From assembly GCF_009258225.1 (NCBI RefSeq), contig NZ_CP043617.1:744001-808000 (forward strand): a stretch of 64,000 nt of DNA, in the 5' to 3' direction. This DNA comes from Sulfurimonas lithotrophica. Lineage in GTDB: Bacteria > Campylobacterota > Campylobacteria > Campylobacterales > Sulfurimonadaceae. The notes under the pieces are model-generated. The model did no database searches, was not told the origin of the DNA, and worked only from the letters and a program-made list of their open reading frames with translations. The translations under genes were made by a program, and so were the position numbers. Positions within the stretch are counted from its first letter, which is position 1; each line of letters begins with the position of its first letter. This document shows positions 19,901-63,032 of the stretch, piece after piece.

Positions 19901-20166
19901 GGTAGGATGGCATCTACGTTTTCTTCTTTAATAATTTTAGCAACAACATCTTCTTTTATAGGCTCAATATAAGTACGGTCGGCAAATTCAGGATCAGTCA
20001 TAATAGTAGCAGGATTTGAATTTATAAGAACTACTCGATAACCCAACTCTTTTAGAGTTTTAACGGCTTGAGTACCTGAGTAGTCAAATTCACAAGCTTG
20101 ACCGATAACAATCGGACCGGAGCCAATAAGTAAAATAGTATTTATGTCGGTGCGTTTTGGCATCAA
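16909..20166 (-). CDS. carB: Carbamoyl-phosphate synthase large subunit
   Basis: The 1085-residue synthetase subunit makes carbamoyl phosphate from bicarbonate, ammonia and two ATP for pyrimidine and arginine synthesis. The two homologous ATP-grasp halves are both evident: [21 protein letters not shown] at the N-terminus and its repeat [19 protein letters not shown] near residue 560, each followed by a P-T-x-G-G-Q or V-H-F-G-G-Q-T motif. The C-terminal allosteric MGS-like domain covers about residues 935-1085. Length is normal. The glutaminase subunit gene carA is not in the window. It lies 65 bp downstream of mreC. Confidence 0.98.
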
Positions 20167-20231
20167 AAAACCTTATAATTTTTTTTGGATTATAGCCAAA
20201 GAGCACTTAAAAAATGATTACTCAATAATAT

Positions 20232-45680: not shown

Positions 45681-47132
45681 TTGGATAGCGTTTTAGTTGA
45701 TATATCACAAAACAATTCTGTTGGTGAAGATCTGAAATATGATGATATTTATGTAAAAATTGAACAAGAGATAGATAAAGACTATAGTCTGAATGATGAA
45801 AGTACTGATTGGAAATTAGTACATGATAGTTGTTATGAGTTTTTAAAAAGTAGTTCAAAGGATTTGAAAATCGCCGTTTGGTGGGTTTTTGCTAGTTGGC
45901 AAGAGGACACTTGGGATGGATTGCACAGTTCACTTATCGTTTTAAATAAATTTATAGAAAAGTATCATCAAGACTTTTTTCCAAAATCTAAAAAAGCTAG
46001 ACAAAATGCATTGATTTGGCTTGATACAGTATTGACAAATGAAATAGTAGAACATAAGCAGCATATAAATAAGTTAAAACACAATACTGAAATAGTTGAA
46101 ATTTTAAGTACAACTCAAGATATAACAAAGGAGTTATTAGAAGTTGATGATTTTTACTTCACTAAAGTTATACGGTATTTAAAAACAACAGTTTCTAAAA
46201 TAGAAAAAGTAGAAACTGTTGTTAAGCATCCTGAGAATAAAAGTACGCAACATAATATAACTTCTATATCTTCTGAGGAAGATGCTAAAAAGGTTTTTCA
46301 AAATTTTAAAAAAATGGCATCTATGTTAAGCGAATATTACAGAGAGAAAAATAGTTTTGATTTAAAAGCACTTAGAATTACAAGACTTCTTTCTTGGATT
46401 GGTATTGATGAATTACCTGTAGAAAAAAACGGTCTTACTTTTATAAACCCACCATCTGAAATGACAATGATGAAATTGAATGAACTCTTAGAAAACAATC
46501 AAAAAGAGGAAGCATTTAAATTTTTACAAAGTACTTTAGAACGTTCACCATATTGGTTAGATGGGCATTATCGCTCATATGAAATACTAGAAGAGTTCAA
46601 TAAAACACAAGAAGCTAAAGAGGTAAAAAATGAACTTATATCTTTTGTCAGTACACACAAAGGAATAGATAAGCTAAGTTTTAAAGACGGAAAACCTTTT
46701 TTGAGCACTTCCTTGGTTACTCAACAAAGTGACACGTTAAATATGGAAAAAATTGTTAATACCAGTGAAGAAAACTTTTCCAAAAAAGTACAAAATATTA
46801 TTCAAAACCATCATATGAAGGAGGCAATAGAATTACTTCAGAACGAATATGAAAAACTGTTGAGTTTTGAAGAAAATTTTAAGATGAGACTTGAAATTGT
46901 TAAAGACAATAGTATTAAAAAACATTCAAATGTTTTAACGGCTTTTTTAGAAGGTCTTGAAACAGATGTTAAAAAATATCATCTTGAAGAGTGGAATCCT
47001 GAACTTGCTTTAGAGGTAAATATGTTACTTGTAAAGCATTTTGATGGTTTAAAAGATAAAAAAGAAAAGGTAGATAGAGCTTATGAAAGCATATCTAAAC
47101 TCAATATTTCACAAATGTTAAATTTAAAATAA
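45681..47132 (+). CDS. tssA: T6SS protein TssA
   Basis: A 483-residue baseplate/tail cap protein. The N-terminal ImpA_N domain (about 10-130) includes DLKIAVWWVFASWQEDTWDG, and the C-terminal half carries a VasJ-like region with PYWLDGHYRSYEIL near residue 295. A TTG start is used, 5 bp after AAGGA. TssA primes sheath assembly and stays at one end of the tail. It is the first gene of the main rightward T6SS operon. Confidence 0.9.
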   Translation: MDSVLVDISQNNSVGEDLKYDDIYVKIEQEIDKDYSLNDESTDWKLVHDSCYEFLKSSSKDLKIAVWWVFASWQEDTWDGLHSSLIVLNKFIEKYHQDFFPKSKKARQNALIWLDTVLTNEIVEHKQHINKLKHNTEIVEILSTTQDITKELLEVDDFYFTKVIRYLKTTVSKIEKVETVVKHPENKSTQHNITSISSEEDAKKVFQNFKKMASMLSEYYREKNSFDLKALRITRLLSWIGIDELPVEKNGLTFINPPSEMTMMKLNELLENNQKEEAFKFLQSTLERSPYWLDGHYRSYEILEEFNKTQEAKEVKNELISFVSTHKGIDKLSFKDGKPFLSTSLVTQQSDTLNMEKIVNTSEENFSKKVQNIIQNHHMKEAIELLQNEYEKLLSFEENFKMRLEIVKDNSIKKHSNVLTAFLEGLETDVKKYHLEEWNPELALEVNMLLVKHFDGLKDKKEKVDRAYESISKLNISQMLNLK

Positions 47133-47143
47133 GGAAATAAACA

Positions 47144-47626
47144 ATGAAACAATCTGAGTCACCAAAAGAAAGAATTAATGTCACGTATAAACCTGCGACA
47201 GGGGATGCGACAGAAGAGATAGAAATACCATATAAGATTACCGTGTTAGGAAATTACAATCCAAATGCCGAAAAGTTACCTATCGAAGATAGAAAAGCAA
47301 TCAAGATAGACAAAAATAATTTTAATGATGTTTTAAAAGAGCAGAACTTATCTGTTTCTTTTGAAGTGCCTAGTAAATTAACGGATGATGAAGATGCTTC
47401 TTTAAATATTGATTTAAATATCAATAGTATGAAAGACTTTTCACCGGAAAGTATCGTAGAAAATGTAGATGAACTAAAGGTTTTAATGGATTTAAGAAAA
47501 TCATTAGTAGCATTAAAAGGTCCTCTAGGAAATGTTCCTGCATTTAGAAATGCAATAGAAAACGCTATCTCTGATAAAGAAGAAAGAGATAAATTAATGA
47601 GCGAACTAAATTTAAAATCTGAATAA
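47144..47626 (+). CDS. tssB: T6SS sheath small subunit TssB
   Basis: A 160-residue VipA/TssB protein that pairs with TssC to form the contractile sheath. ERINVTYKPATGDATEEIEIPYK, shown here in pieces (RINVTYKPATG, EIEIPYK), LLGNYN-like VLGNYNP, DLNINSMKDFSPE and the final LKGPLGNVPAFR are family marks. Length is normal. A gap of 11 bp to tssA and 9 bp to tssC places it in the operon. Confidence 0.96.
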   Translation: MKQSESPKERINVTYKPATGDATEEIEIPYKITVLGNYNPNAEKLPIEDRKAIKIDKNNFNDVLKEQNLSVSFEVPSKLTDDEDASLNIDLNINSMKDFSPESIVENVDELKVLMDLRKSLVALKGPLGNVPAFRNAIENAISDKEERDKLMSELNLKSE

Positions 47627-47635
47627 GGATAGTAT

Positions 47636-49111
47636 ATGTCAGCAGTAGAAGCAACAGTAAGTAACGAAGTATTAAATAGCGATAGTTTATTAGATAGCAT
47701 TATTGCACAAACAAGTATTACACAAGAAGATGATACTTATTCTGTAGTTAAATCAGGTGTAGGTGCATTGATAGAAGAACTTATTCAATCTGATAATCCG
47801 GATGAAAAAGTTAATAAAGCAGTTATAGATAAGATGATTGCTGAAATAGATGCAAAAATTTCTGCACAAATGGATGAAATATTACATCATGAAAAGTTTC
47901 AGGAATTAGAATCTAAGTGGAGAGGTTTATATTTTTTAGTTGAGAAAACAGATTTTAGAGAAAATATTTTAATGGAAATGATTAATGTTACCAAAGAAGA
48001 TTTAATCGAAGATTTTGAAGACTGCTTAGATATAACACAAACAGGTTTATATAAACATGTATATACTTCAGGATACGGTCAGTTTGGAGGTGAGCCTGTT
48101 GGAACAATGGTAGCTGATTTTGAACTTTCACCTTCAAATGTAGATATGAAATTTTTAACAAAAATGGCTTCAATATCAGCTATGTCACATGCTCCGCTTA
48201 TTACAGCAGCTGGACCAAAATTCTTTGGATTAGATTCATTTGAAGGTTTACCAAACCTGAAAGATTTAGAAGATGTAATGAACTCACCACAGTTTGCTGC
48301 ATGGAAAGGTTTTAGAAAAAATGAAGATTCTAGATATGTAGGTATGACTCTTCCTAGATTTTTATTAAGAGCACCTTATCATCCTGAAGATAATCCAATA
48401 TCGAAGTTTGTATATCAAGAAGATGTTTCTTCATCACATGAAGATTATCTCTGGGGAAGCACAGTATATACACTCGCTAGTAAACTTACAGATTCATTCG
48501 CAAACTATAGATGGTGTACAAATATTATAGGTCCAATGAGTGGAGGAGAAGTAAGAGACTTACCTGTTCATACATTTGAATCTATGGGTGATGTTGAAAT
48601 GAAAATTCCAACAGAAGTACTTGTGTCTGATAGAAGAGAGTATGAACTTGCACAAGAAGGATTTATCCCCTTAGTTATGAGAAAAGGTAGTAACTCAGCA
48701 GCGTTTTTCGCTGCTAATTCTGCACAAGAACCAAAAATATTTGCAGATACTCCAGAAGGAAACGAAGCAGAATTGAACTATAAACTAGGGACTCAGTTGC
48801 CATATCTTTTTGCTGTAACAAGAATGGCACATTATATTAAGGTTCTTCAACGTGAACATATAGGTTCTTGGAGAGAAAGAGAAGATTTAGAACGTGAGTT
48901 AAATAAGTGGGCAAAACAGTATGTGGCAAATCAAGAAAACCCTAGTGCTGAGATTAGGAGTAAAAGGCCATTTAAAAAGATACAAATAGATGTTGAAGAT
49001 ATTGCTAAAGATCCAGGTTGGTATAAAGTTAAAATAGCTTTACGTCCTCATTTTAAATATATGGGTGCTAATTTCGAGTTGTCTTTAGTTGGTAAATTGG
49101 ATAAAGACTAA
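47636..49111 (+). CDS. tssC: T6SS sheath large subunit TssC
   Basis: A 491-residue VipB/TssC protein. HEKFQELESKWRGLYFLVE, ISAMSHAPLITAAGPKFFGL, GFRKNEDSRYVGMTLPRFL and the C-terminal GWYKVKIALRPHFKYMGA are strongly conserved in the family. The N-terminal part bears the helix recognised by ClpV in systems that recycle their sheath; a ClpV gene is present here. The stop codon overlaps the tssE start (TAATG). Confidence 0.97.
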   Translation: MSAVEATVSNEVLNSDSLLDSIIAQTSITQEDDTYSVVKSGVGALIEELIQSDNPDEKVNKAVIDKMIAEIDAKISAQMDEILHHEKFQELESKWRGLYFLVEKTDFRENILMEMINVTKEDLIEDFEDCLDITQTGLYKHVYTSGYGQFGGEPVGTMVADFELSPSNVDMKFLTKMASISAMSHAPLITAAGPKFFGLDSFEGLPNLKDLEDVMNSPQFAAWKGFRKNEDSRYVGMTLPRFLLRAPYHPEDNPISKFVYQEDVSSSHEDYLWGSTVYTLASKLTDSFANYRWCTNIIGPMSGGEVRDLPVHTFESMGDVEMKIPTEVLVSDRREYELAQEGFIPLVMRKGSNSAAFFAANSAQEPKIFADTPEGNEAELNYKLGTQLPYLFAVTRMAHYIKVLQREHIGSWREREDLERELNKWAKQYVANQENPSAEIRSKRPFKKIQIDVEDIAKDPGWYKVKIALRPHFKYMGANFELSLVGKLDKD

Positions 49112-49527
49112 TGTTTAAAGGGAGTTTATTCGAGCGTTTAACACCTGAACAACATATAGATGTTCAAGGGGAAGGTGAAGATATATTGTATAAATCTATC
49201 GCTTTGAATATTTCTCGAATACTCTCCACAAATGCAGGAAGTGCAGAAATAGCATTAGACTATGGCAGACCTGATTTAGATAATATGAACTTAACGGTAA
49301 ATGAATCAATTAATGCTATAGAGCAAAATTCAAGACTTACTATTATGAAATATGAGCCTAGGCTTTGTAATGTTAATGTAAGTATGGATAAAAAGAATTT
49401 ACAACGTAATGAGATGAGTATATATATTGAAGGATTTGTAAATATAAATAAAGAGTTGAAAAAAATAAGTTTTCGGGCAAATCTCTTTAAAAATGGCGGA
49501 GTTAAAGTATATAAGTATGGAATTTAA
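49111..49527 (+). CDS. tssE: T6SS baseplate protein TssE
   Basis: A 138-residue gp25-like wedge protein. SLFERLTPEQ at the start, GSAEIALDYGRPDLDNMNL in the middle and YEPRLCNVNVSM further on are the GPW/gp25 marks (wild-type E-P-R-L stretch). It overlaps tssC by one base and tssF by 11 bp. Confidence 0.92.
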   Translation: MFKGSLFERLTPEQHIDVQGEGEDILYKSIALNISRILSTNAGSAEIALDYGRPDLDNMNLTVNESINAIEQNSRLTIMKYEPRLCNVNVSMDKKNLQRNEMSIYIEGFVNINKELKKISFRANLFKNGGVKVYKYGI

Positions 49528-51292
49528 TGATTATTATAGGCAAGAGTTGACTGCCCTAAGAGTCGAGGGAACAGAGTTTTCAAAGAGAAACCCCGGATTA
49601 TCTACATTTTTATCAAGAGAAGGACAGGATCCTGATGTAGAAAGACTTTTAGAGGGATTTGCTTTTTTAACAGGTCGATTAAGACAACAAATAGATAAAG
49701 AACTGCCTGAGGTCGCACATACGCTTGTACAACTATTATGGCCAAATTATGTACGTTCTATACCTTCTTATACTATCATTCAATATAAAGCTCTTGAAGA
49801 TAGATGTGAAACTATTTTAGTGGAAAAAGACACAAAAATTTTAAGTAAAAAAGTTGCTAACGGAGTTCAATGTCCATTTAAGACTTCCTATGATACAGAA
49901 GTTATGGCATTAAAAATAAATGACTTAAACTATTATGTTCATGGTGAAAAAAGTTCTATAGAACTTGACCTGAATATGACTGCAGCAGGTTCTTTAGATG
50001 ACTTAAATTTAAGCAAACTTCGTTTTTATATTGGTGGTTCTAAATTTGTTGCTAAAGACTTATATATGTTTCTTACTCGTTTTCTTGAATCTGTTGAAAT
50101 TGAAGTTTATAGTTCTGATGAAAAAAATAGTAAAAAAGTTTCATTAGATATTTCGTCTTTAGTACCTGTTGGGTTCCAAACAAATGAAAGGTTAGGTTCT
50201 TATCCATTAAACGTTTTTGATGGATATACTCTTTTACAAGAATATTTTTGTTATCCGAATAAATTTTTATTTGTAGATTTTTTGAACTTAAATAAAATAA
50301 ATGCTTTAGAGAAAGAGTATTTAAGAAAATCAAGATCTTTTACTATTCATTTTCATTTTTCAAAAAGATTACAAAGTAATGAATCTCCAACTAAAGATAA
50401 TTTTTCTTTATATTGTACACCGGCAATTAATTTATTTCAGACTGAATCAGTTCCTATTAGAAAAAATGAAACACAAGAAGAATATTTAGTAGTACCATCT
50501 GATATATCAAGAGAACATAGTGAAGTATATTCTATAGATAGTGTTAGAGGATGGATACAAGCGAAAAATAGATATGATGATTATCAACTTTTTGAATCTT
50601 TTGAACATAATGATGACTCGCAATATTATTCTACTAGAGTTAAGTTATCTATAGATGGTGAAAGAACAAATACGTATTTAAGATTTGCTTCTAATAATGG
50701 TGCAGAAGAAAACATTGAGAATTCTGATAGCACTGTTTCTGTTCAAATAACATGTACAAATAGTAATACTCCACATGATAATATTTTGATTGGTGATATA
50801 AATTTACCTGATCCACTATCTAAAACTGAAAAATTAAAATTTAAAAATATTACAATTCCTTCATCATCATATCCCCCACCGCTAAATGGGGATTTTTTAT
50901 GGAAAGTCATTTCAAATATGTCATTAAATTATTTATCATTAGAGAATATTCAAGCATTAAGAAAAATTATAGAAACGTATGATTTTATAGGTCAAAATGA
51001 TATTAAACAAAGAGAAAAAACATCTGTAATGTTACAGGGATTAAAATCTATAGACTATAAAACTATTGAGATGATGGATAAAGGTTTTCCGTTAAGAGGT
51101 ATAGAAGTTTCTATTGTTATAGATCCTAAGAAGTTTGAATGTTTAGGAGATGCTTACATCCTTTGTTCTATTTTAAATGAGTTCTTAACTTTGTATGGAA
51201 ATATAAATTCATTTCATCAACTGAACGTAGATATTATAGGTGAAGATGTCTTTAAATGGCAACCAAAGATGGGAACAGAGGTTGTAGGCTAA
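49517..51292 (+). CDS. tssF: T6SS baseplate protein TssF
   Basis: A 591-residue wedge protein (ImpG/VasA family). I place the start at 49517, since homologues begin with M-x-F-N-x-Y-Y-x-x-E-L and the sequence MEFNDYYRQELTALR starts there; an in-frame ATG at 49493 would add eight residues and deepen the overlap with tssE. FSKRNPGLSTFLSREGQDPD and EVAHTLVQLLWPNYVRSIPS are conserved. A GGAG lies 15 bp upstream of the chosen start, which is far, so coupling to tssE is likely. Confidence 0.92.
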   Translation: MEFNDYYRQELTALRVEGTEFSKRNPGLSTFLSREGQDPDVERLLEGFAFLTGRLRQQIDKELPEVAHTLVQLLWPNYVRSIPSYTIIQYKALEDRCETILVEKDTKILSKKVANGVQCPFKTSYDTEVMALKINDLNYYVHGEKSSIELDLNMTAAGSLDDLNLSKLRFYIGGSKFVAKDLYMFLTRFLESVEIEVYSSDEKNSKKVSLDISSLVPVGFQTNERLGSYPLNVFDGYTLLQEYFCYPNKFLFVDFLNLNKINALEKEYLRKSRSFTIHFHFSKRLQSNESPTKDNFSLYCTPAINLFQTESVPIRKNETQEEYLVVPSDISREHSEVYSIDSVRGWIQAKNRYDDYQLFESFEHNDDSQYYSTRVKLSIDGERTNTYLRFASNNGAEENIENSDSTVSVQITCTNSNTPHDNILIGDINLPDPLSKTEKLKFKNITIPSSSYPPPLNGDFLWKVISNMSLNYLSLENIQALRKIIETYDFIGQNDIKQREKTSVMLQGLKSIDYKTIEMMDKGFPLRGIEVSIVIDPKKFECLGDAYILCSILNEFLTLYGNINSFHQLNVDIIGEDVFKWQPKMGTEVVG

Positions 51293-52288
51293 ATGATAAA
51301 TATATCAGATATAAATCATAAACTTGCTTCTAAAACGAACAAATATTCTTTACCTCAAGCAATGAGGGTTGTTTTTTACTATTTAAAAAAGATATATTCA
51401 ATATCAGATTACGATATATTAAATAAAAAAATACGTTTTCAAGGTAATTATTCACTCGCTTTTCAAAAAGGTGAAGTACATGAAATAGAATTTTTTGAAG
51501 ATGAAATCTCTGGAAAAAGAGTAGTTTTAACAGTGAATTTTTTAAGCTTATTTGGTAGTTCTTCACCGTTACCTAGTCATTACAGCGAACTTGTGTTAAG
51601 AAGCTTTGAAGGAGATAGAGTTTTATATGATTTTTTAAATATTTTTAATAATAATATACAACGTTTTATATACCCTATATGGGAAAAACAGAGGTATTAT
51701 ATAAAGTATAAAAAAGATTTAAATGATGGTTTTTCAAAGTACTTACTTGCAATGTTGGGACTTTATGCAAATTTTGGTCAAAAACAGAATAGATTAAATT
51801 TTAGAAAAATTATGCCATATATTGGTGTATTAAGCATGCGTCAAAAATCAGCAGGAACAATAACTTCGATTTTAAGACATTACTTAGGATTTAATGAAAT
51901 AGAAATTATTCAATCTATGAAAATGAGTTCTGAAATTCCATCTTGGCAATATTCTAAATTAGGTAAAGAAAATATACAGCTAGGTGTAAATTTATCAATC
52001 GGTGAATTTCTTATTAATAAAACTTCAAAATTTAGAATCTTATTAAAAAATGTAACTGTTTACGATATGTTCAAGTACAGTGTTCATGGAAACAAAATGG
52101 GAGAGTTGAATGATTTAATATCTTTTGCTTTTAATGAGCCTTTAGATTACGATGTATGTATGGAAATAGAAGAAAAAGAAAAAATAAAATGTGTTTTGAA
52201 TAAAACAGATAAAAGATATATAGGAATTAATTGTTGGATTGGTGAACCACAAGGAAAAGAACAAATTGTTATCGCACAAAAAGGTTAA
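51293..52288 (+). CDS. tssG: T6SS baseplate protein TssG
   Basis: A 331-residue ImpH/VasB family protein that joins TssF, TssE and TssK in the wedge. FLSLFGSSSPLPSHYSELV is the family hallmark, followed by DFLNIFNNNIQRFIYPIWEK. It starts directly after the tssF stop codon. Length is normal. Confidence 0.93.
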   Translation: MINISDINHKLASKTNKYSLPQAMRVVFYYLKKIYSISDYDILNKKIRFQGNYSLAFQKGEVHEIEFFEDEISGKRVVLTVNFLSLFGSSSPLPSHYSELVLRSFEGDRVLYDFLNIFNNNIQRFIYPIWEKQRYYIKYKKDLNDGFSKYLLAMLGLYANFGQKQNRLNFRKIMPYIGVLSMRQKSAGTITSILRHYLGFNEIEIIQSMKMSSEIPSWQYSKLGKENIQLGVNLSIGEFLINKTSKFRILLKNVTVYDMFKYSVHGNKMGELNDLISFAFNEPLDYDVCMEIEEKEKIKCVLNKTDKRYIGINCWIGEPQGKEQIVIAQKG

Positions 52289-52290
52289 AA

Positions 52291-54852
52291 ATGAAATTTG
52301 AAATACGTGAATTAATAAATGCTTTAGATGAAAAAACAAAATTGCATTTGCAAAATGCAGCAACTAGATGTATGGAAAGATCTGGCAATGAGATATTAAT
52401 TGAAGATTTGTTATTTGTAATGTGTGAAGATGAAACTTCACTTTTTAATGCAGTTATGTCACATTATAAAATAGATGTAGATAATATGATAGAGGTACTT
52501 CAACATAGTGTTAAAGTTGATACTACTGAGAGTAGTAGTCCCGTTTTTTCAAAGCAAATTATTAGTTTGCTTGAAAATGCATTTTTTATAGCAAAAATGC
52601 AGCTAAATGTTATGGAAATATCTGATGCAGCGATATTAATTTCATTATTTGAAAATGGCATGAAGTATATGAATACTGGATACTTTCAGTTATTACAAAA
52701 TATACCACTTGAAGAGTTAAAACAATTAATTGAAGGGTTAAACGAAGAAGCTGTAAAGAGCGTAAAATTAGAAAAAAATCTAAATACAAAAAAACATAAA
52801 TCTTCTGCTGAACTTGAAAAATATACAACAAATTTAACAAAGCTTGCAAAAAGTGGTGAAATTGATCCTGTACTTTGCAGAGATGATGAGATTAAACAAG
52901 CTATAGATATTTTGCTAAGAAGAAGAAAAAATAACCCAATTATGGTTGGTGAAGCAGGTGTTGGTAAAACAGCAGTAGTTGAAGGCTTGGCCCTTAAAAT
53001 AATAAATCAAGAAGTTCCAACTCAGTTGTATGATGCACAAATATTATCGTTAGACTTGGGCTCATTACAAGCTGGTGCCGGAGTAAAAGGTGAATTTGAA
53101 AGACGTCTTCAAGCGGTTATAAATGAAATTCAGCACTCAAGTGATTTTATTATCTTATTTATAGATGAAGCACATACTTTAATTGGAGCAGGTGGAAATG
53201 AAGGAAGCGGTGATGCTGCCAACTTATTAAAACCAGCATTAGCACGTGGTCAGTTAAGAACGATAGCAGCTACAACTTGGTTGGAATACAGAAAGTATTT
53301 TGAAAAAGACCCTGCATTATCAAGAAGGTTTCAAAAGATAGATTTACTTGAACCAACTGTTGATCAATCGGTGACAATATTAAGAGGATTAGCAAAAAAA
53401 TATGAAGAAGTTCATGAAGTATATATTGAAGATGAAGCTCTTCAAGTTGCTGCTTCATTATCAGCTAGGTATATAACAGGAAGACAGCTTCCTGATAAAG
53501 CAATAGATGTGTTAGATACTGCTTGTGCAAATGTAAAAATAAGCCAAACAAATACTCCTTTTATAGTTCAAAAAATGTATACGGACATAGAAGAACTTAA
53601 AAGAAAACAAGAATTTTTTGTTAGGGACAATAATAGAGGTATTAAAGACTATCGTACACAAATATTTACAATAGAAGAACAGTTAAAAGACCTAGAAAAA
53701 GAAGTAGAAATCATTATAAAATCATGGAAACAGCAGAGAAGTGCTATGGATGAATTAAAACAGGCAATAGCAAATGATGAGACTGAAAAAATTAAGCAAT
53801 TGCATAAAAAAATCGATAAACTACATGAAAAAAACAGATATATACATAAGCACGTAACAAAAGAACAAATAGCTGAAGTGATATCGTCGTGGACGGGCAT
53901 ACCTCTTGGTAATATGGTTAACAAACAGATTGAAAAAGTTATGGATTTAGCTAAGTTTATGAAACAAAGAATTATAGGACAAGATGAAGCAATAGACTAT
54001 ATAAACCAATTTTTACAAATATCAATGGCTGGATTAAAAAAAGAAAATGCACCAGCAGGTGTTTTTTTGCTAGTTGGTCCAAGTGGTGTTGGTAAAACTG
54101 AAACAGCACTAAGTATTGCTGATTTGGTATTTGGAGGAGAAAGATTTATTACTACAATAAATATGACTGAATTTCAAGAGAAACATACGGTTTCTAGATT
54201 GATAGGATCTCCACCTGGATATGTTGGATATGGCGACGGAGGTCAATTAACGGACCCAGTTAGAATAAAACCATACTCAGTGGTTCTTTTAGATGAAATC
54301 GAAAAAGCACATCCTGACGTTTTAAATCTTTTTTATCAGATGTTTGATAAAGGAGTTTTAAACGACGGTGAAGGTAGAACGATTGATTTTAAAAATACAA
54401 TTATTGTTATGACTTCTAATCTTGCAACATTTGAAATAACAGAGTTATGTACACAAAATCAACATATACAAATGGATGAAATAAAAGACTATATTACGCC
54501 AATTTTATCAAATTATTTACAGCCGGCTTTGTTGGGAAGAATGAATGTAATTCCATATTTTAATCTAAAAGATGATGCTTTAAAAGACATAACTAAACTA
54601 AAATTAAATTTTATTAATACTCAATTAGAAAAAAAAGATATTAATTTTAAATATGATGAATCTCTTTTGAATTATATAGTTGAATTGTCAAATGCTAGAG
54701 ATACAGGTGCTAGAAATATTGAGTTGATAATAAACTCTAAAATTATGCCTGAACTATCAAAAGTACTATTAAGTGCAGCTATTGAAAAAAAAGAACTAAA
54801 AGAATTGTATTTAGGCATAGATGAAAATAGAAAAATTATGATAAGGAGTTAA
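52291..54852 (+). CDS. clpV: T6SS ATPase TssH (ClpV)
   Basis: An 853-residue AAA+ ATPase that disassembles contracted sheath. A Clp N-domain covers about residues 1-150. Walker A1 GEAGVGKT starts at G220, Walker B1 is LFIDEAHTLIGAGG, a coiled-coil middle domain lies at about 410-520, and Walker A2 GPSGVGKT starts at G596. WTGIPLGNMV before the second domain is typical of ClpV/ClpB. ATGATG of the next small gene overlaps its stop. T6SS clusters described in Campylobacter and Helicobacter are reported to lack ClpV, so this cluster differs from them. Confidence 0.96.
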   Translation: MKFEIRELINALDEKTKLHLQNAATRCMERSGNEILIEDLLFVMCEDETSLFNAVMSHYKIDVDNMIEVLQHSVKVDTTESSSPVFSKQIISLLENAFFIAKMQLNVMEISDAAILISLFENGMKYMNTGYFQLLQNIPLEELKQLIEGLNEEAVKSVKLEKNLNTKKHKSSAELEKYTTNLTKLAKSGEIDPVLCRDDEIKQAIDILLRRRKNNPIMVGEAGVGKTAVVEGLALKIINQEVPTQLYDAQILSLDLGSLQAGAGVKGEFERRLQAVINEIQHSSDFIILFIDEAHTLIGAGGNEGSGDAANLLKPALARGQLRTIAATTWLEYRKYFEKDPALSRRFQKIDLLEPTVDQSVTILRGLAKKYEEVHEVYIEDEALQVAASLSARYITGRQLPDKAIDVLDTACANVKISQTNTPFIVQKMYTDIEELKRKQEFFVRDNNRGIKDYRTQIFTIEEQLKDLEKEVEIIIKSWKQQRSAMDELKQAIANDETEKIKQLHKKIDKLHEKNRYIHKHVTKEQIAEVISSWTGIPLGNMVNKQIEKVMDLAKFMKQRIIGQDEAIDYINQFLQISMAGLKKENAPAGVFLLVGPSGVGKTETALSIADLVFGGERFITTINMTEFQEKHTVSRLIGSPPGYVGYGDGGQLTDPVRIKPYSVVLLDEIEKAHPDVLNLFYQMFDKGVLNDGEGRTIDFKNTIIVMTSNLATFEITELCTQNQHIQMDEIKDYITPILSNYLQPALLGRMNVIPYFNLKDDALKDITKLKLNFINTQLEKKDINFKYDESLLNYIVELSNARDTGARNIELIINSKIMPELSKVLLSAAIEKKELKELYLGIDENRKIMIRS

Positions 54853-54854
54853 TG

Positions 54855-54992
54855 ATGATAAAAAAAACTATCGCTATTGCAGTATATTTGGGTGTTTTTA
54901 GTGTATTTCTAACAGGTTGTAGTTCTTTTCAAGAAAAGTATAAACCTTTGTATCAAGTAAAACCAACTGTAGAAAAAATTGAGGAAGACTAA
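54855..54992 (+). CDS. Very small lipoprotein within the T6SS operon
   Basis: A 45-residue gene product too short for many gene finders. A signal peptide MIKKTIAIAVYLGVFSV ends in the lipobox FLTGC (Cys22), leaving a mature lipoprotein of only 24 residues: Cys-Ser-Ser-Phe, then a charged tail ending KIEED. AAGGAG lies 6 bp before the chosen ATG; a second ATG directly before it overlaps the clpV stop. The FHA gene begins 3 bp after its stop. I know no named family. Tight spacing, a good ribosome-binding site and an intact lipobox argue for a real gene. Confidence 0.75.
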   Translation: MIKKTIAIAVYLGVFSVFLTGCSSFQEKYKPLYQVKPTVEKIEED

Positions 54993-54995
54993 AAC

Positions 54996-56204
54996 ATGAA
55001 ATTAGTATTAGATATTATAAAAAGTAACCAAGATAGTCAGGCAAATAGAAGCTTGCATCTAAATAAAGAAGATGCATTAGTAGGTAGATCTAACGAATGT
55101 GATTGGCAATTAATAGATCCAAATAATTACATATCAAACAAACATTTATATATTGAGTATAAAGATAATTTATATTTTATAAGAGATGAAAGTACAAATG
55201 GAACTTATTTAAAATTTCCATATAAGAAGTTACCAAAAGGAAATAATATAACAATTAATTCTACAGATATTTATATTTTAGGTGATTATGAAATTCAAGC
55301 AAGGTTTGTGGAAGATGACTTTTCTGAAGATATCATATCTCATATTAATACTATTGATAGTAATAATAAAGAACGAGAAAATATAGATATTATCCCAGAT
55401 AATGATTTTATAGATGAACCGTTTGACAGTTTAGAAACTAATGAAGTTGATATTATGAATATAGTTTCAAATACAAAAAAAGATGTAGATGAAGTTGAAG
55501 TTGAACGTGATATATCTAGCGAGATAGATGAACATTATATAAATATACCTGATGCATTAAATGAAAAAGATGAAAAACTATCTAAAATAACTGATGCATC
55601 TTTACAAAGAAGTATTGCGGTTTTAGAAAAAAAACTTGGTATTGAGATATGTTCGATTGAAAATAAAGATAGGGAAGCACTATTCGAAGAGATCGGAGAT
55701 ATTGTGTTGAACAGCCTAATTGGTTTAAAACACTCTTTATATGTAAAAGAAAAAATAAAAGAGGATATGAATGTACTAAAAGTTGATGAGAAAGAAATTG
55801 AATCTAATCCGATACTTTTGGGAGATTCAGCTTCAAAACTTTTACGTGATAAACAATTGGCAGGTATGTTGGGGTTTTCAAAAATATCTGATGCAGTTTT
55901 ACAATCATTTGATGAAATAGATAGACATAATATAGCTTTACATGCGAGTACTAAAAACTTAATGAATGTAACAATAAGAAAATTTTCTCCAGAAGGTTTA
56001 GAATATTATTTTGAAAGAACGAATGCTTTAAAAGGTATCTTCAAACCTAGAACATTCAAATTATGGAGTGCTTATCATAATATGTTTAAGCAATTTGATA
56101 AAGATCCTGATACTGGTATAAAGTTAATTAGAAAAGAGTTTGAAAAAGAATATAAATCTAATGCATATGGTGTGTCTCTAGCAACACAACAGCGTGTTAA
56201 ATAA
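54996..56204 (+). CDS. fha: T6SS-associated FHA-domain protein (Fha/ImpI type)
   Basis: A 402-residue protein. The N-terminal FHA domain (about 1-100) contains LVGRSNECDWQL, ISNKHLYIEY and STNGTYLKF, the phosphothreonine-binding loops. An acidic linker (about 105-190) is followed by the T6SS FHA C-terminal domain (about 225-395), with ARKF-type TIRKFSPEGLEYYFE. Such proteins are substrates of the PpkA kinase and stimulate secretion. The matching phosphatase and kinase genes stand at the end of this operon. Confidence 0.93.
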   Translation: MKLVLDIIKSNQDSQANRSLHLNKEDALVGRSNECDWQLIDPNNYISNKHLYIEYKDNLYFIRDESTNGTYLKFPYKKLPKGNNITINSTDIYILGDYEIQARFVEDDFSEDIISHINTIDSNNKERENIDIIPDNDFIDEPFDSLETNEVDIMNIVSNTKKDVDEVEVERDISSEIDEHYINIPDALNEKDEKLSKITDASLQRSIAVLEKKLGIEICSIENKDREALFEEIGDIVLNSLIGLKHSLYVKEKIKEDMNVLKVDEKEIESNPILLGDSASKLLRDKQLAGMLGFSKISDAVLQSFDEIDRHNIALHASTKNLMNVTIRKFSPEGLEYYFERTNALKGIFKPRTFKLWSAYHNMFKQFDKDPDTGIKLIRKEFEKEYKSNAYGVSLATQQRVK

Positions 56205-56216
56205 AGGAATTTAAAA

Positions 56217-56654
56217 ATGAAAATATTAATTACTGTTTTTATAATATTTTTTATGAGTGGATGTATAAGTAGACCAACTCATATTGACCTGGAAATAGAA
56301 TCTGCAAAGGAAATTAATGTTAATGAAAACAACGTATCTTCACCACTTATGTTAGTTTTTTATGAATTATCCTCAGCGGATAGATTTGTAAAATTTACTT
56401 ATTGGGACCTTGTAGATAATGAGGGAGAAAAACTTAAGGAAGATATTATTTCACAGACTAAGCATCCAATTCTTCCAAATGAATTCCAAACATATAGAAT
56501 TGTTTTTTCTGAGAAAGCTAAGTATTTGGGAATTATTGCAAAATATAGGGAGATTATTGAGCCAAATTGGCGTTACATAATAAATCTAGAGAAAGATTCA
56601 TCAAATGATGCAGAGTTAAAAGTAGAAAAATATTCAATATTGGAAGATGATTAA
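56217..56654 (+). CDS. tssJ: T6SS outer-membrane lipoprotein TssJ
   Basis: A 145-residue lipoprotein with lipobox FMSGC (Cys16) after a short signal peptide. The mature part is a beta-sandwich of TssJ/VasD type: LMLVFYELSSADRFVKFTYW and ILPNEFQTYRIVFSEKAKYL, with AKYREI towards the end. It anchors the TssL-TssM complex to the outer membrane. The start follows AAAGGA by 9 bp. Confidence 0.9.
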   Translation: MKILITVFIIFFMSGCISRPTHIDLEIESAKEINVNENNVSSPLMLVFYELSSADRFVKFTYWDLVDNEGEKLKEDIISQTKHPILPNEFQTYRIVFSEKAKYLGIIAKYREIIEPNWRYIINLEKDSSNDAELKVEKYSILEDD

Positions 56655-56656
56655 TT

Positions 56657-57988
56657 ATGGAAAGAAGAGTTGTATGGAAAGAGGGGTTGTTTATTCGCCC
56701 TCAACACTTTCAACAAAATGATAGATATTATGCTTATGAGTTAATGAGCAGAACAATTAATGTTGGAAGTAATCAATGGGGTTTTTTTGAACTGGATATT
56801 GATAAGCGTTTATTAGGAATAGGAAAAATTGTATTGAATTATGCCAGTGGTATTTTGCCTGATGGAACATTATTTAATATCTCTGATAAAGAAGAAAGTC
56901 TTGCTTTAGATATTGGAGAAGATGACTTCGGAAAAGGAATCTATTTAGCTATACCAATTGTAGTACATAATAGTGATGAAGTTCATTTTGAAGATCAGGA
57001 TAATATTTTAACGCGTTATAGTGCAGATACGGTATTAAATATTTCAAACACTAATGCAGGTGAGAATTCTAATGCAGATTTAGTGTTGGCCAAACATGAT
57101 TTTAAATTACTATTAGAAGATGATGTAAATGATGGATATATAGCTATAAAGCTTACAAATATTATTTCTGTAAGTACAGGTGGAAACGTTGCTATTGATG
57201 ATAACTATATTCCAACATTTTTACATCTTAATAAGTCAAAAGATCTTTTGTCAATAATAAATGAGCTTGTTCGTATGTTAACCTACAGAGTTGAAAGATT
57301 GTCTAATAAAATAAGTCATTCGGTATTACAAGCATCTGAGTTAGGGAACTATTTAATGCTGAAATTACTTAATAGAACATTGAGTAGGTTTCATTTCTTT
57401 TTAACGCAAGACAACATTCATCCTCAAGACATATTTTTGGAGTTGACTTCGTTGGCAGGAGAGCTAGCTGTTTTTATGAAAAAGGATAAAAGACTAACTG
57501 AAAATTTTACTTATAAGCATGAAGATATGGGAACTAGTTTTAATAATATTATTGATGAGTTAAAAGATATGCTGAGTATGGTACTAGAACAAAATTCTGT
57601 TTCACTATCTATTGAAGAGAGAAAATATGGTATTCATGTAGCACAATTAAAAGATAAAAAAATGTTAAAAAATTCAGAATTTATTTTTGCAGTTAGTGCA
57701 GATACATCTACCGAGAAAATTAAAGATACGTTAATCGCGAATTTAAAAATGGGTACTATAGAAACAATAAGAGAACTTGTAAATTATCATTTAGAAGGTT
57801 TTAAATTAAAATTGCTTTCATCACCTCCAAGAGAGATCCCATATCGTGTTAATAATCTTTATTTTCAAATTGAATTAACAAGTGAAAATAGAATAGAGTT
57901 AGAAAAATCAGGAGGTTTTGCCTTCCATTTATCTGCAGAATTACCAAATATAGTGTACGCACTATGGTCTATTAGAAGCTCTTCATAA
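56657..57988 (+). CDS. tssK: T6SS baseplate-membrane adaptor TssK
   Basis: A 443-residue ImpJ/VasE protein linking the baseplate to TssL and TssM. The N-terminus VVWKEGLFIRPQHFQQNDRY is the family hallmark, and the C-terminal part has SSPPREIPYRVNNLYFQIEL. It starts 2 bp after tssJ. Length is normal. Confidence 0.95.
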   Translation: MERRVVWKEGLFIRPQHFQQNDRYYAYELMSRTINVGSNQWGFFELDIDKRLLGIGKIVLNYASGILPDGTLFNISDKEESLALDIGEDDFGKGIYLAIPIVVHNSDEVHFEDQDNILTRYSADTVLNISNTNAGENSNADLVLAKHDFKLLLEDDVNDGYIAIKLTNIISVSTGGNVAIDDNYIPTFLHLNKSKDLLSIINELVRMLTYRVERLSNKISHSVLQASELGNYLMLKLLNRTLSRFHFFLTQDNIHPQDIFLELTSLAGELAVFMKKDKRLTENFTYKHEDMGTSFNNIIDELKDMLSMVLEQNSVSLSIEERKYGIHVAQLKDKKMLKNSEFIFAVSADTSTEKIKDTLIANLKMGTIETIRELVNYHLEGFKLKLLSSPPREIPYRVNNLYFQIELTSENRIELEKSGGFAFHLSAELPNIVYALWSIRSSS

Positions 57989-57998
57989 GGAAATATAT

Positions 57999-58889
57999 AT
58001 GAGTAGTACAACATTATTAATTCCAAGTTCTGAGAATAAAACGAATTTGACAAATTTTGATAAACATAAAGAAGAAAATTACAGTACTTTTAAAGATAAA
58101 ACTTTGAGTTTTGTAAGAAATACTAAAAAAACACATATCCCTTATTATGATGAAGATATGAATTATTTCTTATTAGCTTCATCATCAATATTTCAACAAC
58201 TTAGTATTGTACAAAACAATTATGATGTAGGACCAATTTTCGAAGTTAGACAATCGTTTATTGATTCCATAAACGAATATACTGAAATGTTAATGCAATA
58301 CAATGTAGAAGAATCACAGGCCTTAGTATCAAGATATATACTTTGTACCTTTGTAGATGAGTTGATAAATACAACTCACTTTGGACAAGAAAATAATTGG
58401 TCCAGTAATAGTATGTTGAGAATATTTCATAATGAAAGTTACGGTGGTCAAAACTTTTTTAAATTGTTAGATAAATTCTTAAAAGCACCTGCTAAATTTA
58501 TTTATATATTAGAACTTATGTATGTATGTTTATCTTTAGGTTTTCATGGAAAATATCGTGTAGATAATTCAAACAAGCAAGAATTAAACATGATTAGAGA
58601 GAGTTTATACAAACAAATAAAAATTATTCAAGGAAGGGAACCGTTAAAGTTTTACACCAAACATGAACCTTCAACTTTGAAACATAGACTATTTTATATA
58701 ACTTCATATACTAGTATAGCTTTAATCAGCTTATTAGTATTAATAATAGTGTACACAGGCTTAAGCTTTGGAATATTTAATGAAGATCAGAAGTTTTTTA
58801 CTACAATAGAAAAAAGTTTAAGTTCAAAATATTTAACAGCTAAAAATTTTAATTTAGAAAAATATAAAAAGGAATATATAAATGATTAA
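57999..58889 (+). CDS. tssL: T6SS inner-membrane protein TssL (DotU type)
   Basis: A 296-residue protein with a cytoplasmic DotU domain and a single C-terminal helix (SIALISLLVLIIVYTGLSFG, about residues 248-267). YILCTFVDELINTTHFGQEN and LMYVCLSLGFHGKYRV are conserved. It has no peptidoglycan-binding extension, so the complex depends on other anchors. It overlaps tssM by 8 bp. Confidence 0.94.
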   Translation: MSSTTLLIPSSENKTNLTNFDKHKEENYSTFKDKTLSFVRNTKKTHIPYYDEDMNYFLLASSSIFQQLSIVQNNYDVGPIFEVRQSFIDSINEYTEMLMQYNVEESQALVSRYILCTFVDELINTTHFGQENNWSSNSMLRIFHNESYGGQNFFKLLDKFLKAPAKFIYILELMYVCLSLGFHGKYRVDNSNKQELNMIRESLYKQIKIIQGREPLKFYTKHEPSTLKHRLFYITSYTSIALISLLVLIIVYTGLSFGIFNEDQKFFTTIEKSLSSKYLTAKNFNLEKYKKEYIND

Positions 58890-61800
58890 ATCATTAATTA
58901 AAAGTGGAATTTTTTGGACACTTTTTGTATCAGCTATAGTTACTGCAATAATTATATTTGCTTTTCCTTATTTTTTTGAGTCATTTGAGGAATTGAACTA
59001 TAGGTTATTGATTGCATTGTCTTTCTTTTTTATTATTGTGATTTTTGTTTTACTATATGTTGTTTTTTTACAAGAAAAGACACAAAAAAAGATTAAATCG
59101 TTTAAAGAAAAAAGAGATGTACATGTAGATAAACAAAAAAAGATTGATTTAAAGATCAAAGATATTAAAATTAAATTTAATGAAGCTTTGAAAATTTTAA
59201 AAAATTCTACATTATACAGAAATAAAAGAAGAGCAAGGTATGAACTTCCTTGGTACTTATTAGTAGGAAAAGAAAAAGAAGGTAAAACAACTTTACTTGA
59301 GGCTTCAGGATTAGAATTTCCATTAAATATAAATTATGATCATAGAAGTGTTAAGGAGGAGGGGACTTCACAAGGATTCTTATGGTATTACGCTGAGCAT
59401 GCTATTTTTATTGATATGCCTGGTAAGTATATTGAGCAAGATTTGGAAGAAGTTGACAAAACAGTGTGGGAAAAAGGTTTTTTAAAAATATTTGCAAAAA
59501 AAAGATTAAGAAGACCCCTCAATGGAATTTTATTAAATATAAGTGTAGATACATTCATTAATAAAAGTGAAAAAGAACTTGAACAATATGCAAAAGACTT
59601 ACGCGATAGATTCGACGAATTGTCTGATGGTTTTGCTTCAAGTATCCCAATTTATTTAATAATAACAAAATCAGATAGGATAGTAGGTTATAATGAGTAT
59701 TTTTCAACTTTAAGTGAAGATGAAAGAGAAGAAATATTAGGAATTACATTCGATAATCCTTCTATGAATATTGATACTACTGTGGTAAGACCGGAATTGG
59801 AAAAGCTTCTTAAACGTATTCATAGCTCGGTTGTTGATAAACTACATCAAGAATGGGATGAAGATATACGTAGTAAGATTTTTCTTTTTCCAAATGAGTT
59901 TAGTAATATTTTTGAAAAAATTGGTATGTTTACAGATATTTGTTTTTCTCAAACTAGATATAGAAAGTCTTTAATGCTTCGTGGAATCTACTTTACATCA
60001 GTACCGGCAGATCAAGAAGCAAAAACCTCTTATTTATTATCTCAGAAAGATGATAATAAGTTGAGTACAGGTAGAAGTTCTAAAGGTTATTTTATAAAAA
60101 AACTTTTACAAGATATTATTTTTCCAGAATCTGATTTAATTAAAATGGATGAAAGTTTTAAAAAAATAAATAAGAAACGTCAAGTTTTTGCTTTAAGTTT
60201 AGCTGTTTTAAGTGTTTTAATTTTAAGTACATTATGGGTAAATGATTTTGTATCTCATAATAATTTACTTCATAACTTAGAAAAAAGAACTATAAAAATA
60301 GAAAATGAGAGAAATAAAATAACGAGCAAAGATAGTCTTGAAAAAATATTGCCAATTTTAAATGAAATAAAATCTATAAAAGATACATATGAAAATGAAA
60401 TTTCAGATAGCTTTTATAGACTAAATTTTTATAATGTTGAAGACAGAACAACTCAACTTTATAGTTATTATCAAAATACGCTTGCAACCCTTTTATTACC
60501 AAGGGTAGAAAAGAACTTAAATAAACAAGTACTTTTAAATTTAAGTAATTATGATAGAACATGGAAAAATACAGAGTTATATTTGATGTTAAATGATGAA
60601 AAACATAGAAATAATGATTATTTAAAAACTGCTATGGGAGAAATTTGGGCAAAAACTTATTCAAATAAACATACAGTACAAAATAATTTAAATGAACATT
60701 TTAAAAATTTATTATCATTAAACTTTAGCCCTTATAAGCTGAATAAACAAACATTAAAAGTAGCCCGTTCAGTGCTTTATAATAAAGCAAATGTTGTTTT
60801 AGTTTATGATGAATTAAAGAAACTTGCAAATGAAAAAATGAATTTTCGTACATTTAGTTTTGAGGAAGTTTTAGGAACTAATGTAAATGTGTTTAGTGGT
60901 GATAATTATAAGATTCCAAGCTTTTTCACTAAACAAGGATTTGAAACAATAATAGTTTCAAATGGTAAAGGTTATGTAAAAAATATCTTGAAAAATAATT
61001 GGGTATTGGGAACAAGAACAGATTTAACACAAAGTGAACTTGATGATGTTTATTCTCAAGTATTAAGTTTGTATTTCAAAGAGTATAAGCATTATTGGAT
61101 AAGTTCTATTACAAAACTAAATATTCCAAAAGTACATACGGAGAGTGCACTTCGTAACCAGTTAGAAGTTCTATCTCTTGCAAACTCTCCTATTATATCT
61201 ATTTTACAGGCATTAAAGAAGAATACAAACATTTATACACCTGAAGAGTTAATTTTAATAAAAGCTAGAACAGAAGATAAAGCTATTGATAAGATAGCAC
61301 AAACTACAGCAGAAAATAAACTTAAAACAAGTAAGCTTGTGGCAAATATTAAAACTGTTAGAACATTTTTTAAGCCTTATCATGATTTATTAAAAGATGA
61401 TGAAACACCAAATATCAATTTAGAAAATTCTATGTTAGTTTTAAATGATACTTTTCAAAAGATGAATGATATATTTTCATCTATAAATCCAAAAGAAAGA
61501 GCTTTTAAGATTCTTGAAGCACGTACAAAAGGTAAAGTAGAGCCTGTAATGAAAAACTTTTCAGCATTACCTATAAACGTTGATCGCTGGCTAAAACAAG
61601 TTTTAGGGTACAATTGGGGATATCTGTTAAGACAGTCTAAAGAGTATATTCAAGAAAAGTATGAAGAAAATGTATATTCATTTTATCAACATAAACTTCA
61701 ACAAAGATATCCATTTGAAAAATATTCTAATTTACAATCTGTAAATCTTGAAGATTTTAAATTATTTTTTGAGCTTAATGGAATTTTTGACAAGTTTTAT

Positions 61801-62352
61801 AAACACCATATAGAACCTTTTATAAACATAAATAACATATCGTATAAATCATATTCCTTTAAAAAAGTTGATGGTAAATCAATAGAATTTGATAGAGAGT
61901 TTATGGAAAATATGTTGCGTGTATTTAGATTGCGTAGTATATTCTTTGATAGTAGTGGAGAAAGGCTTTACAGTAATTTTTATATTACCCCTAAGACATT
62001 AGATAAATCATTCTCAACTGTAAAGTTTAGTTATGGAAATGAACATATGCTTTATGAACATGGAGCAATTAGAGATATGTTATTCACATGGCCTACAAAA
62101 ACAGAAAATAAAGCTAGTTATATCCTATATGATATATATGGTAACAAAGCTGTAAATATCAATTTTGATGGTGCTTGGTCTTTATTAAAGATTTTAAATA
62201 CTCTAGATATTCAAACAGTTTCAACCAGTAAAGTTGAAGTAAAATCTAACGAATATGAAGATAAAGTCGTATTCTATATTAAAGGTGATATTTGTAAAGT
62301 ATTTAAAAAAGACAAGCTTTTTGAGAATTTTAAATTAAATAAGAAAATTTAA
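58882..62352 (+). CDS. tssM: T6SS inner-membrane protein TssM (IcmF type)
   Basis: A 1156-residue protein with three helices (about residues 10-32, 38-63 and 434-455). The cytoplasmic part between them carries Walker A GKEKEGKT (residues 130-136 with the preceding Gly129), and the Walker-B-like IFIDMPGKY. The long periplasmic part beyond residue 455 contains the IcmF-related and C-terminal domains that contact TssJ. PWYLLVGKEKEGKTTLLEAS is typical of the family. Length is normal. Confidence 0.95.
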   Translation: MIKSLIKSGIFWTLFVSAIVTAIIIFAFPYFFESFEELNYRLLIALSFFFIIVIFVLLYVVFLQEKTQKKIKSFKEKRDVHVDKQKKIDLKIKDIKIKFNEALKILKNSTLYRNKRRARYELPWYLLVGKEKEGKTTLLEASGLEFPLNINYDHRSVKEEGTSQGFLWYYAEHAIFIDMPGKYIEQDLEEVDKTVWEKGFLKIFAKKRLRRPLNGILLNISVDTFINKSEKELEQYAKDLRDRFDELSDGFASSIPIYLIITKSDRIVGYNEYFSTLSEDEREEILGITFDNPSMNIDTTVVRPELEKLLKRIHSSVVDKLHQEWDEDIRSKIFLFPNEFSNIFEKIGMFTDICFSQTRYRKSLMLRGIYFTSVPADQEAKTSYLLSQKDDNKLSTGRSSKGYFIKKLLQDIIFPESDLIKMDESFKKINKKRQVFALSLAVLSVLILSTLWVNDFVSHNNLLHNLEKRTIKIENERNKITSKDSLEKILPILNEIKSIKDTYENEISDSFYRLNFYNVEDRTTQLYSYYQNTLATLLLPRVEKNLNKQVLLNLSNYDRTWKNTELYLMLNDEKHRNNDYLKTAMGEIWAKTYSNKHTVQNNLNEHFKNLLSLNFSPYKLNKQTLKVARSVLYNKANVVLVYDELKKLANEKMNFRTFSFEEVLGTNVNVFSGDNYKIPSFFTKQGFETIIVSNGKGYVKNILKNNWVLGTRTDLTQSELDDVYSQVLSLYFKEYKHYWISSITKLNIPKVHTESALRNQLEVLSLANSPIISILQALKKNTNIYTPEELILIKARTEDKAIDKIAQTTAENKLKTSKLVANIKTVRTFFKPYHDLLKDDETPNINLENSMLVLNDTFQKMNDIFSSINPKERAFKILEARTKGKVEPVMKNFSALPINVDRWLKQVLGYNWGYLLRQSKEYIQEKYEENVYSFYQHKLQQRYPFEKYSNLQSVNLEDFKLFFELNGIFDKFYKHHIEPFININNISYKSYSFKKVDGKSIEFDREFMENMLRVFRLRSIFFDSSGERLYSNFYITPKTLDKSFSTVKFSYGNEHMLYEHGAIRDMLFTWPTKTENKASYILYDIYGNKAVNINFDGAWSLLKILNTLDIQTVSTSKVEVKSNEYEDKVVFYIKGDICKVFKKDKLFENFKLNKKI

Positions 62353-63032
62353 TGAAAAATAAAAGTTTTTCTTTTACACACCCTGGACATAAAAGAAGAG
62401 TTAACGAAGACTCTTTTTATGTAAATGATGAAAAAGGATTATGGGTTGTTTGTGATGGTATGGGTGGACATGAAGAAGGTTTGTTTGCCAGTAGTTTAGC
62501 AACTGATAGTTTTTCAGCTTTAGAACTAAACTCAACTTTTAATGATAATGTCGAAAGAATTCTACAAACTATTCATTTTATTAAACAACAGCTTGATAAA
62601 AAAGTTTATACTTTAGATATTAATGATTTTGTCGGTACAACTCTAATATTACTATATATTAAAGATGGTAAAGCATTATGTATAAGTGCCGGTGATTCAA
62701 GGTGTTATATATTAAGGAATGATAAGTTATCACTAGTTAATAAAGATCATACAAGAGATGTAATCGATGCGAAACAAGAAACCAGAAGTGTTTTAACAAA
62801 TGCAATTTTTGCACCTGGAGATATAAATATAGATATAAAGAAGTTTACTATAAATAAAAATGATGTTTTTTTATTGTGTAGCGATGGTTTATACTCTTAT
62901 TTAAATATCAAAGAAATAAAGCATGCTATGAATCTGGCATTTGAAGGTAGAGGGTTAAATTTACTGAAAACATCTGTTCTTTCTCAAGATGCTGACGATA
63001 ATTTAACAGGTGCTATGATATGTGTATTATAG
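62352..63032 (+). CDS. pppA: PP2C-type serine/threonine phosphatase (PppA-like)
   Basis: A 226-residue Stp1/PppA phosphatase. Metal-binding and catalytic motifs are RRVNEDSFYV, VVCDGMGGHEEG, GTTLILLYI, ISAGDSRCYIL, LLCSDGLYSYL and DADDNLTGAMI. It should reverse phosphorylation of the FHA protein and thereby switch secretion off. It starts on the last base of tssM and overlaps the kinase gene by 13 bp. Confidence 0.92.
   Translation: MKNKSFSFTHPGHKRRVNEDSFYVNDEKGLWVVCDGMGGHEEGLFASSLATDSFSALELNSTFNDNVERILQTIHFIKQQLDKKVYTLDINDFVGTTLILLYIKDGKALCISAGDSRCYILRNDKLSLVNKDHTRDVIDAKQETRSVLTNAIFAPGDINIDIKKFTINKNDVFLLCSDGLYSYLNIKEIKHAMNLAFEGRGLNLLKTSVLSQDADDNLTGAMICVL

Follow-up and report, generated by a model that had tools for sequence, protein, structure and literature searches.

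The open reading frame of 45 residues that lies between clpV and fha in Sulfurimonas lithotrophica, here called LIP, is very probably a real gene and a small, so far unnamed part of one type VI secretion system (T6SS) lineage in the Campylobacterota. It may be a lineage-specific accessory lipoprotein of the outer membrane which clips the TssJ-TssM tip by its lipid-proximal peptide, a reading that draws on analogy and one ambiguous fold hint and is given a probability of about 0.4. The evidence comes from the position of the gene, its distribution among related clusters and the pattern of substitutions in its mature part.

The gene and its surroundings

LIP was found in a stretch of 64,000 nucleotides, referred to as the window, and encodes MIKKTIAIAVYLGVFSVFLTGCSSFQEKYKPLYQVKPTVEKIEED, terminated by TAA (54990-54992). 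The sequence-only reading had credited it with a good ribosome-binding site, an intact lipobox, neighbours only 2 and 3 bases away and a mature part of about 24 residues, and each of these features was found: AAGGAG precedes the ATG at 54855 with a spacer of 6 nt, the lipobox reads LTGC, 2 bases separate the clpV stop codon (54850-54852) from the start and 3 bases separate the stop from the fha ATG at 54996, and C22-D45 comprises 24 residues. An in-frame ATG at 54852, where one listing of the reading frames starts the gene, would add one Met (46 residues), but 54855 is preferred because of its better Shine-Dalgarno spacing. When the window was filtered for reading frames of 30-60 residues with a Shine-Dalgarno sequence and a lipobox, LIP was the sole one to pass on either strand, the criteria having been chosen post hoc with LIP already in view.

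Table 1. Features of the LIP gene and of the T6SS cluster around it, in window coordinates
Feature	Position	Strand	Basis or remark
tssA, tssB, tssC, tssE, tssF, tssG	45681..52288	+	Pfam
clpV (tssH)	52291..54852	+	Pfam
Shine-Dalgarno AAGGAG	54843..54848	+	within the clpV 3' end
LIP gene, 45 aa; alternative ATG 54852	54855..54992	+
LIP signal peptide, residues 1-21, fast-evolving	54855..54917	+	sequence and pN/pS comparison
LIP lipobox L19-T20-G21-C22	54909..54920	+	C22 25/25, preceding residue G/A/S 25/25 in the alignment
LIP mature lipopeptide C22-D45 (predicted)	54918..54989	+
LIP conserved core Y29-K-P-L-Y-Q-V-K-P37	54939..54965	+	alignment of 25 sequences
fha (tagH)	54996..56204	+	PF20232 and TIGR03354 TagH (Pfam, NCBIfam)
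tssJ lipoprotein	56217..56654	+	Pfam, NCBIfam; modelled fold matches TssJ1 3zhn
tssK	56657..57988	+	Pfam
tssL	57999..58889	+	DotU the only Pfam match
tssM	58882..62352	+	Pfam
pppA (PP2C phosphatase)	62352..63032	+	Pfam
ppkA kinase	63020..63886	+	Pfam; no transmembrane stretch by hydropathy

LIP is one gene within a near-complete main T6SS cluster (Table 1), in which Pfam gives the order TssB, C, E, F, G, ClpV, LIP, FHA, TssJ, TssK, and hcp lies just past the window end (G000:C1:808073-808456; the window ends at 808000). The modelled part of TssJ is that of a normal TssJ (3zhn, Z 18.7, rmsd 1.6, 127 aligned residues). In a hydropathy scan a transmembrane stretch was present in TssL and TssM and a signal peptide in TssJ, while PpkA and Fha of the window had no such stretch; hence TssJ, TssL and TssM are the envelope proteins left in the cluster.

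A reading frame of 1317 residues beside the T6SS genes (41552-45505, minus strand) had no Pfam match and weakly matched the T6SS effector family BTH_I2691 (NCBIfam, E 0.0091, far under the cut-off). Two TPR-repeat proteins adjoin it (39929-40711 and 40760-41548, both on the minus strand), and the three together are a candidate effector and neutraliser module.

Distribution among T6SS clusters

Twenty-six clpV loci were found in public genomes, of which 25 could be read; in L015 the contig end falls inside clpV. The earlier reading had proposed looking for short lipobox frames at the same place in related clusters, and an intact one follows clpV and precedes fha in 14 of the 25 judgeable loci (L002-L010, L013, L014, L018, L025 and L027), all 14 titled Campylobacterota. 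Among them L007 comes from Malaciobacter halophilus DSM 18005, a cultured bacterium that is not known to be a pathogen. Of the 11 loci lacking it, four are Sulfurovum-like (L011, L012, L023, L026) and the other seven (L016, L017, L019-L022, L024) belong to different groups. One further record, L146, is identical to L018, a Sulfuricurvum record.

A LIP profile of 15 sequences (A1) matched 15 of 397 Campylobacterota genomes with at least 41 bits, the score below these being 28 bits in a longer frame; up to 18 first-look candidates were scored per genome, so that a divergent copy could escape. Five of these 15 genomes supply rows of the profile (G000, G439, G380, G468, G363) and the other 10 do not. 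The fha family PF20232 exceeded its cut-off in the identical 15 genomes, with G262 holding a match under the cut-off. Likewise, 19 of the 104 genomes in the family of G363 carry both LIP and PF20232, and neither was found in the rest (profile A3, at most 70 first-look candidates per genome, with the same chance of escape), and at least four of the LIP-bearing genomes lie outside the profile rows (G786, G796, G809, G828). Over the 23 distinct genomes from both searches the LIP match lies 618-862 bases from the PF20232 match, and an intact LIP frame was read in all 23, including the divergent copy of G786 with the core YQPLYSAKP. Thus the frame is neither absent nor broken in all close relatives, the outcome that the sequence-only reading had set against itself.

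LIP stands between clpV and fha in all 14 LIP-bearing clpV loci and in 10 of 10 further LIP-bearing regions (L150 by coordinates), counts which cover the loci read on both sides, the other genomes having been read 1.5 kb each way. A separate tssJ is present in the same 14 and 10 stretches, and in several relatives the spacing around LIP is wider or the frames overlap. It is well supported that LIP is a T6SS-linked lipoprotein gene, encoded within the T6SS cluster and conserved there, as is expected of a Tag lipoprotein. The genome G230 carries its T6SS in two distant places, one with tssA-B-C-E-F-G (L137) and one with clpV-LIP-fha-tssJ-K-L-M-pppA-ppkA (L136); LIP here keeps company with the membrane-complex half and not with tssA-G. 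The genomes G405 and G223 (L138, L139) keep LIP but gave no pppA hit, and their PpkA is short (207 and 227 residues), all other searched cluster genes being present.

An insertion of three genes separates tssG from clpV in G068 (L150:6473-11303), away from LIP. The three encode two Sel1/TPR-repeat proteins and an 812-residue protein with a Tle1-like phospholipase domain.

Matches to the sheath family PF05943 occurred in 73 genomes out of the 397; LIP accompanies the sheath in 15 of these and was not found in the other 58. Of the latter, six were inspected (L140-L145): two have a divergent clpV and four gave no clpV hit in the stretch, and no fha hit occurred in the stretches read of any of the six. 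Within the genus of the window, the sheath occurs in 4 of 100 genomes; G000 and G068 carry LIP, and G018 and G058 (L147, L148, L149) have another T6SS type with clpV and neither fha nor LIP in their stretches. A genus search with a single LIP sequence gave 47 of 100 genomes at E 10, of which all except G000 and G068 (E 2.9e-5) were taken as chance. No LIP was found elsewhere in 12 genomes, namely the ten behind loci lacking it together with G018 and G058, when all candidates were scored; the best match there scored 23 bits and covered profile positions 1-28 within a frame of 202 residues. Nothing was found at E 1e-6 in 299 genomes of Pseudomonadota, the phylum of L016, a search of at most 24 candidates per genome run without a positive control and so not evidence of absence.

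The four Sulfurovum-like loci have fha directly after clpV, with tssJ present and no LIP, and the Pseudomonas loci L016 and L017 have the same gene order with fha and tssJ, again with no LIP. Hence LIP is no general need of fha or of TssJ-TssM. In a ClpV tree, 22 LIP-bearing rows fall within one group of 26 together with three Sulfurovum-like rows lacking LIP and with L015, which cannot be judged for LIP, the fork at its base being open; L006, whose clpV is split, and the short L026 fell to a length cut, and the duplicates L146 and L155 were also omitted. The tree fits one gain of LIP and perhaps one loss.

Two further observations concern the Sulfurovum-like clusters. L023 encodes (18446-21097, minus strand) a PpkA-like protein of 883 residues that, as judged by eye, has a hydrophobic segment and a long C-terminal portion, unlike most LIP-bearing clusters, where the kinase has about 270-300 residues. 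The contig of L011 is labelled Bacteroidetes, yet its ClpV groups with Sulfurovum, and the label is probably a binning error.

Conservation of the mature part and comparison with known families

The alignment of LIP comprises 25 distinct coding sequences, 24 of which encode 38-45 residues with a mature part of 22-25; L010 has 60 residues and a mature part of 41. The lipobox cysteine and P37 are invariant. The core that ends in P37 is nearly so, with Y29, K30 and P31 each kept in 24 of the 25 sequences and L32, Y33 and Q34 each in 22; ahead of the core, position 27 is E or D in 23. The residue before the cysteine is always G, A or S, the one after it is A, S, T or F, and no row has Asp at +2; with its signal peptide and lipobox, LIP is thus a predicted outer-membrane lipoprotein.

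It had been asked whether the tail is conserved, and it is. Mature pN was below mature pS in 298 of 300 sequence pairs (the cysteine taken from the alignment) and below signal-peptide pN in 279 of 300, the pairs not being independent of one another. For the 59 pairs with overall pN below 0.30, mature pN was below pS in 59 and below signal pN in 57. For example, the window against L151 gave a mature pS of 0.44 and pN of 0.10, with 0.46 and 0.47 for the signal peptide, which drifts; L003 against L063 gave 0.55 and 0.03, with 0.58 and 0.31 for the signal peptide, and L006 against L014 gave a pS of 1.00 and a pN of 0.10. Judging from these comparisons, the mature part with its core Y-K-P-L-Y-Q-x-x-P is under purifying selection.

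Ten mature parts taken from the 25 sequences had no match up to E 1 in PHROGs, Pfam or NCBIfam, queries of about 24 residues having little power. Loose family searches with the whole LIP of the window gave E 0.019 or worse, mostly confined to residues 1-32; a single PHROG match (E 0.039) covered residues 6-36, and entericidin B (NCBIfam, E 0.019) covered residues 1-23, which is signal peptide only. The best matches came from members other than the window: phrog_9078, of function not known, was matched by 5 of 15 members (E 1.6e-4, matched range not given), and Cor was matched as well (E 9.3e-4 in PHROGs and 0.0017 in NCBIfam, matched range not given). Because the mature parts alone match nothing, these weak whole-protein matches are read as signal-peptide similarity. 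In the PDB, a SusD homologue was matched over profile positions 1-37 (E 0.0048) with the core hardly retained, and LptM over positions 1-20 only (E 1.2 and 1.5).

The lipoprotein nearest at hand is TssJ (PF12790), the core outer-membrane lipoprotein of the same operon and presumably of the same compartment, in which, by eye, the cysteine is soon followed by Lys-Pro in 18 of 25 LIP-bearing rows (Arg-Pro in the window). However, TssJ has about 120 folded residues, and the earlier reading had noted that it is not as small as LIP; its transthyretin-like fold is one for which LIP is too short. PF12790 was matched by none of 15 LIP members, and a separate tssJ is present. The literature searched, which left most subscription journals outside its coverage, held no description of a LIP-like gene, and the portions available of papers on the Acinetobacter and Bacteroidota membrane complexes name no comparable protein. 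LIP is therefore placed as a T6SS accessory lipoprotein of a new, very small family. Among the accessory lipoproteins found described, TagV comes closest to it. The suggestion that it is an undescribed T6SS envelope component fits the co-occurrence with the cluster, the fixed place, the selection and the lack of a family or paper, the envelope location being predicted from the lipobox.

Possible roles at the outer membrane

In the preferred reading, signal peptidase II would cut before C22 and the cysteine would be lipidated. Since there is no Asp at +2, LIP would be sorted to the periplasmic leaflet of the outer membrane, by a rule that derives from enterobacteria. The chain, usually of 22-25 residues, would then hang in the periplasm with YKPLYQxxP at residues 8-16 from the lipid. 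A peptide of this length should neither fold by itself nor extend as far as the inner membrane. It would instead clip in extended form onto a folded partner at the outer membrane, proposed to be the TssJ-TssM tip, where it would either supply that end of the membrane complex with a lipid anchor or lock it, in the manner of VirB7 in type IV secretion. The +2 rule is also given in PMC7614798, and TssJ touches TssM via a loop according to PMC3213119. AlphaFold2 gave LIP alone a mean pLDDT of 76 at residues 31-40, with a single long helix spanning the signal peptide. When LIP, FHA and TssJ were modelled as one read-through chain, the same residues reached 90, while residues 41-50 remained at 70, and short strands were placed at LIP residues 30-31 and 38-41, a comparison that is not a clean control as the alignments held 10 and 22 LIP rows and contacts are not given. 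The models suggest that the LIP core finds a place within the read-through chain, at a location they do not show; the gain in pLDDT may be a hairpin with FHA, which is joined to LIP by two residues, is cytoplasmic and would be unreachable in the cell.

A related possibility, less likely than not, is that LIP is an obligate extra subunit of the membrane complex in this one T6SS lineage, whose YKPLYQxxP core acts as a staple between the TssJ-TssM tip and the outer membrane; it would be a VirB7-like module of independent origin within a contractile secretion system. VirB7 of type IV secretion is likewise a small lipoprotein of about 40 residues; it belongs to another secretion system, however, and the LIP partner is only proposed. 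LIP has no Pfam or NCBIfam match, which says little for families so short and divergent.

It is rather doubtful that LIP helps to anchor the secretion machine in the outer membrane or on peptidoglycan with no TssJ-TssM contact, as proposed for TagV of Serratia. TagV is similarly an accessory outer-membrane T6SS lipoprotein encoded in the gene cluster beside tssJ, and it did not bind TssL or TssM (PMC7614798). Also in favour of this reading, Pfam gives DotU alone for the window TssL and no peptidoglycan-binding domain. However, TagV has 166 residues and an SH3b domain and lies upstream of tssJ (same paper), and LIP with 45 residues does not pass as a TagV. Its roughly 24 mature residues leave no room for an SH3b-type domain, and its members do not share the C-terminal Lys through which a lipoprotein could be linked covalently to peptidoglycan.

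TagQ of Pseudomonas aeruginosa is a lipoprotein tied to the T6SS with Fha, PpkA and PppA; it is much larger than LIP and works with TagR, TagS, TagT and a PpkA that has a periplasmic part, none of which is among the named genes of the cluster. LIP directly precedes fha in a cluster that ends in pppA and ppkA, and could by this placement be a TagQ-like envelope input to the PpkA-PppA-Fha phosphorylation switch that senses outer-membrane disturbance and licenses assembly. This is unlikely: PpkA of the window, with no transmembrane stretch, offers no periplasmic sensor to address, LIP is kept in G405 and G223 where pppA gave no hit, and a 24-residue chain presumably cannot span the periplasm.

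Partnership with a beta-barrel or surface factor outside the cluster, for contact sensing or outer-membrane passage in the manner of LptM on LptD, is distinctly unlikely. LptM (YifL), a very small lipoprotein of the outer membrane, docks on a larger complex, as is proposed for LIP, with its N-terminal part at the barrel (PMC10567701), and a lipid-proximal motif would suit this. No such partner is found among the named cluster genes, however, and the LptM family PF13627 was absent from 15 of 15 members at E 10, a search in which the HMMER filters drop most weak matches.

Lipoproteins of the colicin-lysis and entericidin sort are similar in size to LIP, and lysis genes travel with toxin genes. 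That LIP is such a lysis, self-protection or stress lipopeptide is highly improbable, since it travels with structural genes and its one entericidin B match is limited to the signal peptide, while none of the ten mature parts searched matches a family. A spurious frame, or a translated spacer coupling fha translation to clpV, is scarcely credible in spite of the shortness of LIP and its gaps of 2-3 bases, as the pN/pS pattern with its invariant cysteine and P37 is a strong argument against both and the gaps are larger, or are overlaps, in several relatives.

LIP would be an unlisted component of a well-studied machine and very small for a conserved secretion-system protein, and it would show that lists of secretion-system parts drawn from longer reading frames can be incomplete. 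The nine-residue core makes the partner and function directly testable. LIP marks one T6SS lineage of the Campylobacterota.
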